From Thermococcus sp. MV5 (GTDB taxonomy: Archaea; Methanobacteriota_B; Thermococci; Thermococcales; Thermococcaceae): a stretch of 64,000 nt of DNA. Of the stretch, positions 44,899-47,705 are shown piece by piece (positions within the stretch are counted from its first letter, which is position 1; the number at the start of each line of letters is the position of its first letter). Both the position numbers and the translations under genes were made by a program. Location: NCBI RefSeq assembly GCF_012027425.1, contig NZ_SNUE01000001.1, positions 248,001-312,000 of the forward strand, read 5' to 3'. Below the pieces are notes generated by a model. The model was not told the DNA's origin and searched no databases. It was given only the letters and a program-made list of their open reading frames with translations.

Positions 44899-45078
44899 TC
44901 ATTCCCCAAGTTCATATACAATTATTTTGATCTTTTTTCCCTTTATAACCTCTTTAAGTTCCCACCATAGATTAGTAGGGCGTTCTTGCTTATGTACCAA
45001 CTCATCCCCATTCTCCAGTTTCACCACCTTCTTGTCAAATTTTATGAAAATCCCCTCCCTATTGAATATCTCCCTCAT
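44899..45078 (-). CDS. Small hypothetical protein (59 aa)
   Basis: The frame ATG 45078 to TGA 44899 overlaps the HAD gene's stop by 4 bp (ATGA) and ends 3 bp before the DUF4392 start. The protein (REIFNREGIFIKFDKKVVKLENGDELVHKQERPTNLWWELKEVIKGKKIKIIVYELGE) looks like a small beta-rich domain. I recognise no family. The tight spacing on both sides makes it a real operon member despite its size; GGGGGG-type purine signal (within 45082-45089) precedes the ATG. Confidence 0.65.
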   Translation of the reverse strand: MREIFNREGIFIKFDKKVVKLENGDELVHKQERPTNLWWELKEVIKGKKIKIIVYELGE

Positions 45079-45722
45079 TTTTCAAATCCCCCCAGTATAC
45101 TTCTAAGCTGATGGAGGCTCCTAATTTCAATGGTAGCAAAATTATAATCCTCTATGCCCTCACGATTTATCCAGATGGATGTCATTCCAACATTTCTAGG
45201 GCCATACACATCCTGATTTAAATCATCTCCTATCATCACAGCTTCTCTTGGTTCTATTCCTAACTTCTCACACCCATATAAAAATATTCTAGGATCAGGC
45301 TTCACAGTTTTTACATCTTCTCTTGTCACAATAACATCAAAGTACCTATCAAGTTTCGTTATCCTGAGTTTCAATTTCTGATACTCCGGACCACTAGTTA
45401 TTACCCCCAATTTATATCCCTCTTCTTTTAGCCACTCCAAAGTTGGGATTACATCCGGAAACACTTGAATTTTGTGGGGATAACTCTTTATCAGCTCTTC
45501 ATACTTAAACTCAAGTCCAAAGCTCTTAAAGAAAAAATTCCAATCATGCCATTCGTAAGTATTTTTTCTTTCTGCGATTTCTCTAAGAAATCTTAGTCGA
45601 GCGTCACCCTTGGATATTCCGAGCTTTTTTGAGAGCTTGTCATATACCTGTGGAAGAAATAGCATGATGAGAGGTCTTTCTGTCAAGAGAGTTCCATCTA
45701 TGTCAAAGAAGATAGCTCTCAT
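45075..45722 (-). CDS. HAD superfamily hydrolase (subfamily IA)
   Basis: The 215-aa protein has motif I RAIFFDIDGTLLTERP, a four-helix cap (residues about 15-85), motif II LGVITSGP, the motif III lysine VKTVKPDPRIF and motif IV AVMIGDDLNQDVYGPRNVGM. It is a probable small-molecule phosphatase of unknown substrate. GAGGTGG 4 nt before ATG 45722 marks the start; it follows the FtsZ-like gene by 1 bp. Earlier in-frame codons overlap that gene and have no ribosome binding site. Confidence 0.85.
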   Translation of the reverse strand: MRAIFFDIDGTLLTERPLIMLFLPQVYDKLSKKLGISKGDARLRFLREIAERKNTYEWHDWNFFFKSFGLEFKYEELIKSYPHKIQVFPDVIPTLEWLKEEGYKLGVITSGPEYQKLKLRITKLDRYFDVIVTREDVKTVKPDPRIFLYGCEKLGIEPREAVMIGDDLNQDVYGPRNVGMTSIWINREGIEDYNFATIEIRSLHQLRSILGGFEK

Positions 45723-45723
45723 G

Positions 45724-46479
45724 TTACCACCTCTTAACCAAGAGAGAAAGTATCTCAACCCGGTTGTTTAATCCCTCTTCCATTTTTACTCCCCAGATTA
45801 TATCCTTTTCTTTCAGGAAATTCTGAAAATTGTAAAGTATTTTATGTGCATCGCTTAAGGGAACGTTTTCCCCTACAAGAATGTTTATCAAGCCTTTATC
45901 CCAGATTCCCCAATGCCACTCAAAGTTAACTTTAGTTAGCAACCGTAAGATCCCTACATTATTACCCCTAACTATGTTAAAGAAGTCGGCATAATCAACA
46001 TTTACCAACATTTGGTTTTCAAGGTAATAATGAAGCCTAGTAAACATAACTCCAATATTTTTTGCTGCCATTTGAAAGGCCGTTTCTAGCGAAACATCTG
46101 TGTAATCGTGCAAGAATTCCCATAAAGAATCATAGAATACTGTATCAAATTCCTGAGCCCACCACGGTTTCTTTTCATATATCAGCTCTTTTTGAGGAGT
46201 TAAGATGTATGCAAGTTTTAATGGATTTTTAGGCAAATAATCAAGAATAATCTCTAATATTTCAATATTTATTGGCTTATTTTCTAGCACAATCCACAGA
46301 ACTGCATTGTCTGGAATATCCCAGAAGACCTTCCTGATTTTCTCCCTGAATGATGATTTCCCTAATAAATAATAAGAAGGATTTATGGAGAACTTTAGAA
46401 ACTCTTCTATTCCAATATTCCGAACAACCCTATTGCCATTGTTTCCAATTCCAATAAAAATATGAGGAAATGAAGGCAT
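45724..46479 (-). CDS. Degenerate tubulin/FtsZ-superfamily protein
   Basis: The 251-aa protein follows the FtsZ fold by eye. A T1-like loop sits in HIFIGIGNNGNRVVRNIG (residues about 6-23). A strand like FtsZ's after T4 is LKLAYILTPQ (about 88-97). The core helix is NIGVMFTRLHYYL. The T7 loop is NVDYADF, with the N-x-D-x-x-D catalytic set at about 160-165. The C-terminal domain strands are KGLINILVGENVPLSDAHKIL and DIIWGVKMEEGLNNRVEILSLL, close in pattern to FtsZ. The GGGTGTG T4 signature is missing; the corresponding stretch is VLENKPINIEILEII. Start ATG 46479 (GTGA 8 nt upstream) is preferred over GTG 46488. It lies between HPS-PHI and a HAD phosphatase. Family assignment is my own reading, not a search. 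Confidence 0.65.
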   Translation of the reverse strand: MPSFPHIFIGIGNNGNRVVRNIGIEEFLKFSINPSYYLLGKSSFREKIRKVFWDIPDNAVLWIVLENKPINIEILEIILDYLPKNPLKLAYILTPQKELIYEKKPWWAQEFDTVFYDSLWEFLHDYTDVSLETAFQMAAKNIGVMFTRLHYYLENQMLVNVDYADFFNIVRGNNVGILRLLTKVNFEWHWGIWDKGLINILVGENVPLSDAHKILYNFQNFLKEKDIIWGVKMEEGLNNRVEILSLLVKRW

Positions 46480-46484
46480 ACAAA

Positions 46485-47705
46485 TCACTCTAATGTAGCA
46501 TGTTTTCTCTTCATATCCTTTTCTGTCTTTTGGAAAGTGGCCATCAATAGAGCTATTATACCATCTAAAAACAGCATTGTTGAATCTTCAAAAAGCGTTC
46601 CCATTGGGGCTATCCACTTATACTCTGTAAGCATTTGTCTAGCAATGTAGTCAGTGGGAATATCCGCTTTTGTTCTTCCTGGTATTTCCACCACCACATC
46701 GGAGAGCTTCCCAAGAGTTGAATCCCTATATGAGGTTATTGCTACAACTTTTCCACCTTGTTTTTTAGCAATCTCTGCTGCATCGACTATAGTTCTGGTT
46801 TCACCACTCCCACTAATTGCTATAAGGAGATCCCCCTCACCAAATGCAGGGGTTATTGTTTCGCCTACAATATAAACGTCAAAGTCGAGATGCATTAACC
46901 TCATTGCAAATGCTTTTCCTACTAGACCACTTCTCCCAGCACCATAAATAAATATTTTATTTGCCCCAATCATTGCGTCTACCATTCCCCTGACTTGATC
47001 TAGTTTTAAAGAATCAGCTACCATGTCGATATGGTCTGTAATATCGTGAATCGCCTTTCTAATCGTTTGCATGTATTCACCCCAGAAGAGGTCGAGTATC
47101 TTCTTGGTAATACCTTCAGGATCTTTCGTCTTTGTTATTGCTCCCCCAACGATGATAATGGTAGCACCGGCTTCTATAACCGTGGGGATTGTCTCTAAAT
47201 TTAACCCACCAGCCACCGCAACTGGGACTTTTACTGCCTTTACAACTTTTTCTAGATCTTCAAGTGGATCTTTTCCTTGAGCTTGTTCATCTATTCCCGT
47301 ATGAACAAGAATGTAGTGAACTCCCATCTTTTCAAGTTCTTTTGCTCTTTCTACCTTATTCTTAACTCCGATTAAGTCTACCATCACTTTTATTCCATAC
47401 TTTCTACCTACGGCAACTGCGTCTTTTATAGTTTTGTTGTCAGCAACCCCAAGTATTGAGACGACATCTGCCCCATGTCTAGCTGCCATCTCTACTTCAA
47501 GTGCCCCTGTATCCATAGTTTTCAGGTCAGCCACTATTTTTCTATCAGGGAACCTTCTTTTCATAAGTTCTACTGCTCTCATGCCTTCCTTCTTTATGAG
47601 TGGTGTTCCAACCTCGAGCCAGTGAGCCCCACCACGGGCTGCTTTTTCTGCTATAGAAATAGCCTGTTCTATATCCGTTAAGTCAAGTGCCACTTGTAAG
47701 ATCAT
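46485..47705 (-). CDS. hps-phi: Fused 3-hexulose-6-phosphate synthase / 6-phospho-3-hexuloisomerase
   Basis: The 406-aa fusion has an HPS TIM barrel (residues 1-210: LQVALDLTDIEQAISIAEKA, VADLKTMDTGALEVEMAARHGADVVSILG, VAVAGGLNLETIP) and a PHI sugar-isomerase domain (215-406: IFIYGAGRSGLVGKAFAMRL, LIAISGSGETRTIVDAAEIA). In Thermococcales, which lack a classical pentose phosphate pathway, it works in reverse: fructose-6-phosphate to ribulose-5-phosphate plus formaldehyde, supplying ribose for nucleotides. It can also fix formaldehyde. ATG 47705 follows GGGGGAGG at 47716-47723. The stop overlaps the start region of the FtsZ-like gene. Confidence 0.95.
   Translation of the reverse strand: MILQVALDLTDIEQAISIAEKAARGGAHWLEVGTPLIKKEGMRAVELMKRRFPDRKIVADLKTMDTGALEVEMAARHGADVVSILGVADNKTIKDAVAVGRKYGIKVMVDLIGVKNKVERAKELEKMGVHYILVHTGIDEQAQGKDPLEDLEKVVKAVKVPVAVAGGLNLETIPTVIEAGATIIIVGGAITKTKDPEGITKKILDLFWGEYMQTIRKAIHDITDHIDMVADSLKLDQVRGMVDAMIGANKIFIYGAGRSGLVGKAFAMRLMHLDFDVYIVGETITPAFGEGDLLIAISGSGETRTIVDAAEIAKKQGGKVVAITSYRDSTLGKLSDVVVEIPGRTKADIPTDYIARQMLTEYKWIAPMGTLFEDSTMLFLDGIIALLMATFQKTEKDMKRKHATLE

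Follow-up and report, generated by a model that had tools for sequence, protein, structure and literature searches.

A short gene of Thermococcus sp. MV5, conserved across the Thermococcales of hydrothermal vents, codes for a reduced version of the cell-division protein FtsZ. The gene, here called Z, lies in a window of 64,000 nucleotides (NZ_SNUE01000001.1, 248,001-312,000; positions are numbered within this window, which is the whole stretch of DNA analysed). A first-pass annotation had described its product as a tubulin-superfamily protein of 251 residues that keeps the T7 loop of FtsZ and has lost the GTP-binding T4 signature. The reading frame agrees with this length (Table 1), an in-frame GTG at 46488 being an alternative, less likely start. 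Translation of the same interval on the plus strand meets many stops, so that Z is coded on the minus strand only. The motifs first noticed are all present: GIGNNGN at residues 10-16, N160-V-D162-Y-A-D165, DIIWGVKMEEG at 226-236 and ILSLL at 243-247.

Table 1. Z, its parts and its immediate neighbours in the window.
Feature	Position	Strand	Remarks
HAD-family hydrolase, downstream of Z	45075..45722	minus	Pfam HAD_2, 2.5e-30; ATG one base past the Z stop
Z (FtsZ-like gene)	45724..46479	minus	251 aa; ATG at 46479, stop TAA at 45726-45724
Strand S9 of Z, EKDIIWGVKM (residues 224-233)	45781..45810	minus	Aligned with xxVIWG of FtsZ
Trp-rich family-specific loop of Z, FEWHWGIWDKG (residues 186-196)	45892..45924	minus	Position of helix H9 in FtsZ
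T7 synergy loop of Z, MLVNVDYAD (residues 157-165)	45985..46011	minus	N160, D162 and D165 invariant
Helix H7 of Z, core helix of the FtsZ fold (residues 131-154)	46018..46089	minus	From the AlphaFold model
Strand S6/T6 position in Z, TVFYDSL	46123..46143	minus	Guanine-contacting N[DN]xL here in FtsZ
T5 position in Z (PFxxEG in FtsZ)	46165..46203	minus	LTPxKEL instead; FtsZ residues missing
T4 position in Z (GMGGGTGT in FtsZ)	46261..46281	minus	8 residues deleted; ENKPINIE after strand S4
Loop T1 remnant of Z, FIGIGNNGN (residues 8-16)	46432..46458	minus	Aligned with GxGGxGNN of FtsZ
Hps-Phi (fused 3-hexulose-6-phosphate synthase/6-phospho-3-hexuloisomerase), upstream of Z	46485..47705	minus	Pfam OMPdecase/HUMPS and SIS

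Single-sequence searches with Z return weak, C-terminal similarity to FtsZ. The window's protein scores 16.5 bits against TIGR00065 (cut-off 295.2) and 13.7 bits against PF12327 (cut-off 27). The similarity becomes significant with an alignment of 50 Thermococcales orthologues, which was used for the profiles and for AlphaFold. Of these orthologues, 49 are matched by the NCBIfam FtsZ model at E-values of up to 1 (best 1.9e-8). The family profile matches Methanocaldococcus jannaschii FtsZ over the T7 region and the final strands (2.8e-7), and its comparison with the Thermococcales FtsZ2 profile extends over the full length of the protein (2e-11). The AlphaFold model obtained from this alignment (pLDDT 86.8, pTM 0.87) has the two-domain fold joined by H7. 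A 46%-identical orthologue, modelled on fewer of the same sequences, shows the same order of elements (pLDDT 85.3, pTM 0.85), with H7 at residues 128-150. For both models, the best 50 Foldseek matches in the PDB are to FtsZ only (1e-11 and 1.2e-13), and the best named matches in a viral library are FtsZ/tubulin-like. The proposed FtsZ/tubulin fold is thus recovered in two orthologues, and we regard it as practically certain that Z is a protein of the FtsZ lineage devoid of the GTP loops.

Aligned with FtsZ1, FtsZ2 and CetZ, Z lacks about 26 residues across S3 and T3 and eight residues at the T4 signature. The T5 loop and helix H9 are also deleted in the alignment, H9 being absent from the model too, and the protein ends at strand S10, without the C-terminal tail that in FtsZ carries the SepF-binding peptide. 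At T6, the N[DN]xL of FtsZ is FYDS in Z. What is retained comprises S1/T1, H7, T7/H8 and S7-S10. In T1, the GIGxxG part is kept and the second part (GNN) is not; among the 50 aligned orthologues, G10 and G12 are invariant, and I11 and G15 nearly so. The same alignment shows invariance of P95, E98, L99 and P105 around the former T5, of T113 and F115-S118 at S6/T6, of W188, W190, G191, W193 and G196 in the Trp-rich loop, and of K225, D226, I228, W229 and G230 in S9. Around the T4 position, the model passes from a strand (60-66) to a helix (69-80). The first-pass annotation was therefore right that GGGTGTG is absent, but not that unrelated residues replace it: the signature has rather been deleted, as have T3/S3, T5, H9 and the C-terminal tail. 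Judged from the alignment, the GTP pocket of Z is excised rather than merely mutated. Nucleotide contacts in FtsZ are made by T1-T4 with the phosphates, T5 with the ribose and T6 with the guanine (PMC8936486). Because T3, T4 and T5 are deleted and T6 reads FYDS, Z appears very unlikely to bind GTP in the manner of FtsZ.

The T7 loop has had another fate. N160, D162 and D165 are invariant in the 50 aligned orthologues and in 57/57 distinct sequences, which conform to N-x-D-x-A-D, so that the T7 match is a conserved property of the family. They are the counterparts of N208, D210 and D213 of Staphylococcus aureus FtsZ, which work in trans on the GTP bound by the adjacent subunit; mutants of each of the three suppressed assembly (PMC8936486). 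Seven of the 34 N/D positions of Z are invariant and include all three catalytic T7 positions, for which the chance expectation is 35/5984, or about 0.006, if positions are independent. The three residues could also be kept for local structure, by capping helix H8. The T7 face of Z is, moreover, not identical to that of FtsZ, H9 being lost and the C-terminal domain carrying the Trp-rich family-specific loop.

From sequence comparison, Z most likely arose when FtsZ2 was duplicated in the common ancestor of Thermococcales. With profiles of equal depth, Z matches FtsZ2 at 2e-11 and FtsZ1 at 2.7e-9, and profile-profile comparison with CetZ gives no match. In a tree on 158 shared columns, Z groups with Thermococcales FtsZ2 (support 97/99) on a stem of 5.3 changes per site, alternative placements not being rejected (AU p 0.13-0.33). 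A CetZ origin was set aside for want of profile similarity; the tree test gives no formal rejection. The true FtsZ2 proteins of the order show a lineage-specific change of their own in the nucleotide loop: T4 reads GNGTGTG in genera g1, g3, g4 and g5 (L052, L095, L097, L098, L099), and GGGTGTG in g2 and g6 (L100, L101) and in most FtsZ2 of other families.

Of 94 Thermococcales genomes, 89 contain Z, including 72 of the 74 good ones. All six genera are represented, and the gene is single-copy in essentially every genome. The five genomes without it look like assembly gaps rather than real losses, because they also lack a full-length Hps-Phi match and two of them are cut at contig ends. One genome carries a second, broken copy, with a stop and a split frame (G070:C2:360947-361698), the intact copy being on another contig. 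No relative of Z was found in the sister families of the phylum, where weak profile matches fall mostly on FtsZ frames of FtsZ length. A scan of 84,980 species with two short motifs, which distant relatives could escape, returned none beyond Thermococcales. At least three true Tubulin-domain proteins occur in 70/70 genomes checked, and the comparison of seven Thermococcales genomes assigns them to the FtsZ1, FtsZ2 and CetZ groups. Since all three are present beside Z, Z is a fourth tubulin-superfamily member in Thermococcales. SepF is present in the window's genome.

Z lies in a conserved Hps-Phi/Z/HAD operon. In the window, the stop of Hps-Phi lies 5 nt before Z, and elsewhere this gap is usually 5-53 nt, with a maximum of 863. 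The spacing between Z and the HAD gene is -4 to +17 nt in 76/76 loci (values raised by 3 nt to correct for where the query starts), meaning that the two adjoin and sometimes overlap; across these loci the link of Z to HAD is tighter than that to Hps-Phi. In most loci reaching that far, the gene order is Hps-Phi, Z, HAD, glutamate-cyclase-like, HD, NusA-like KH and AspRS. An apparent fusion of Hps-Phi and Z in one locus (L009 of G075), a frame of 662 aa, comes from one extra A in a homopolymer and is probably a sequencing error or a young frameshift. On a larger scale, FtsZ1 and Z are separated by about 36-51 kb in several genomes (G000, C1:293727 and 344357; G014, G027, G034, G071 and G072), and no such proximity is seen in the genome of genus g3 that was compared (G005). 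It is perhaps a conserved synteny block only.

These observations are best accommodated by a model that builds on the filament-capping idea of the first-pass annotation and to which, taken as a whole, we give somewhat less than an even chance. In this model, Z is a pseudo-GTPase of the FtsZ lineage that acts as a one-faced subunit, docking through T7 on the GTP face of FtsZ to cap filaments or occupy monomers. Deletions would have removed the nucleotide pocket along with the surface on which another subunit docks, while the T7/H8 surface would have stayed under selection. Because the T7 face is present and the GTP face absent, Z could engage one neighbour only, through the top face of FtsZ. 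Its T7 loop would meet the top face of a true FtsZ, the one that bears GTP; the likeliest partner would be FtsZ2, and N160, D162 and D165 would take the places of the catalytic N-x-D-x-x-D. Lacking a GTP face, T3 and T5 of its own, Z could be followed by no FtsZ, and the filament would be ended at its top end. Alternatively or additionally, Z may occupy the top face of GTP-bound FtsZ monomers and, both aspartates being kept, could promote hydrolysis of the terminal or neighbouring GTP. In current models of assembly, FtsZ monomers join the exposed T7 end of a filament through their GTP-bound top face (PMC8936486), from which it would follow that Z caps the top end, occupies free GTP-monomers or seeds filaments from the top.

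Several other readings have to be weighed against this docking model. That Z might be a decaying pseudogene or a spurious frame is brought to mind by its very long branch to FtsZ and by the broken extra copy, but dN/dS values of 0.05-0.22 in comparable pairs indicate strong purifying selection, 49 positions are invariant across the order and the gene is intact in nearly all genomes, so that this reading is refuted and retains a negligible probability. A more serious competitor, though still an unlikely one, is that the FtsZ fold has been repurposed, with Z serving the HAD hydrolase (or Hps-Phi) as partner or regulator in a role unrelated to filaments, and T7 playing a structural part. The metabolic neighbourhood is the main argument for such a role: Hps-Phi, HAD, the glutamate-cyclase-like gene and HD are metabolic and include no division genes, which counts against a regulator of FtsZ, and the HAD hydrolase, adjoining Z in every locus with Hps-Phi usually close upstream, may be its functional partner. 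The most family-specific invariants (W62, P95-L99, W107, FYDS, WHWGIW) are, in addition, not common to FtsZ. Operon neighbours in archaea are, however, often functionally unrelated, and a repurposed scaffold leaves unexplained why the three trans-acting T7 residues should be among the few invariant N/D positions.

Other alternatives concern what the two faces of Z might bind. Z could be a nucleating minus-end cap that leaves the bottom of the first FtsZ free, so that filaments are seeded or anchored much as microtubule minus ends are by gamma-tubulin. Such a cap would fit a protein with T7 intact and the top face lost, as well as current models in which the growing end is the bottom and monomers add by the GTP-bound top (PMC8936486). 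Its anatomy would nevertheless be identical to that of an inhibitor, there is no evidence of Z oligomerisation or of a membrane anchor and the C-terminal tail is absent; we consider it rather improbable. Lower still stands the possibility that the former GTP pocket has come to accept a different small molecule, Z then serving as a sensor through which a metabolite signals to FtsZ or HAD. The T1 glycines and the old T5/T6 surroundings (P95, E98, Y116, D117, S118) are invariant, but this may merely reflect the packing of a closed pocket, T3, T4 and T5 being deleted, and domain-model searches matched Z to no ligand-binding family. Within the docking model, an inhibitory cap, a monomer decoy and a nucleator would look alike in sequence, and a role with HAD is compatible with the same data.

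Comparison with known systems helps to place Z. Archaeal FtsZ2 is its neighbour in the tree and gives its best profile score; the two share the fold, the strand order, H7, the T7 pattern N-[IV]-D-[YF]-A-D, the GG after H8 and the xIWG strand S9, but FtsZ2 has about 405-440 aa against 251 in Z, identity is about 20% and T3/S3, T4, T5, H9 and the C-terminal tail are missing from Z. CetZ belongs to the same superfamily and occurs in the same order (PMC9856176), yet it keeps GGGTGAG and has T-L-D-x-x-D in T7, whereas Z has no T4 and no match to the CetZ profile. FtsZl1 and FtsZl2 are, like Z, divergent families of the FtsZ superfamily found by remote homology; both retain GGGTG(S/T)G, and FtsZl1 has coiled-coils and no alignable T6-H7 (Makarova and Koonin 2010, PMC2875224). 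Z is the opposite of FtsZl1, T4 being lost and H7-T7 kept, and membership of FtsZl1/Tubulin_2 is rejected by the lack of a Pfam Tubulin_2 match in 50 members, the missing T4 and the short length. In proposed outcome, Z resembles MciZ, the FtsZ capping peptide of Bacillus subtilis, which ends FtsZ filaments; MciZ, however, is no paralogue of FtsZ, and its binding site is the bottom (T7) interface (PMC8936486), whereas Z would bind the opposite, GTP-bearing face. One archaeal survey divides the superfamily mainly into FtsZ1, FtsZ2 and CetZ and adds a single divergent protein from two Thermococcus strains (PMC9856176), and another leaves Thermococcales unmentioned (PMC9871819). As the first-pass annotation had supposed, no system of this kind was found in the openly licensed papers on the archaeal tubulin superfamily, and no description of the Z family in the openly licensed literature, although a subscription journal or an arCOG annotation may mention it.

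The GTP loop is the usual means of recognising tubulin-superfamily proteins, and a motif search would miss an order-universal fourth member in Thermococcales that does without it. It is tentatively conceivable, though on the unlikely side, that Z is specialised in capping the minus (top) end of FtsZ filaments, or in nucleating them, as a protein universal in the order and made from FtsZ itself by deletion of the nucleotide face. If the T7 face of Z does act on FtsZ, Thermococcales would possess a regulator of filament ends derived from the filament protein itself. The two halves of the FtsZ interface would then occur separated in nature, in an order in which Thermococcus kodakarensis is genetically tractable for tests.
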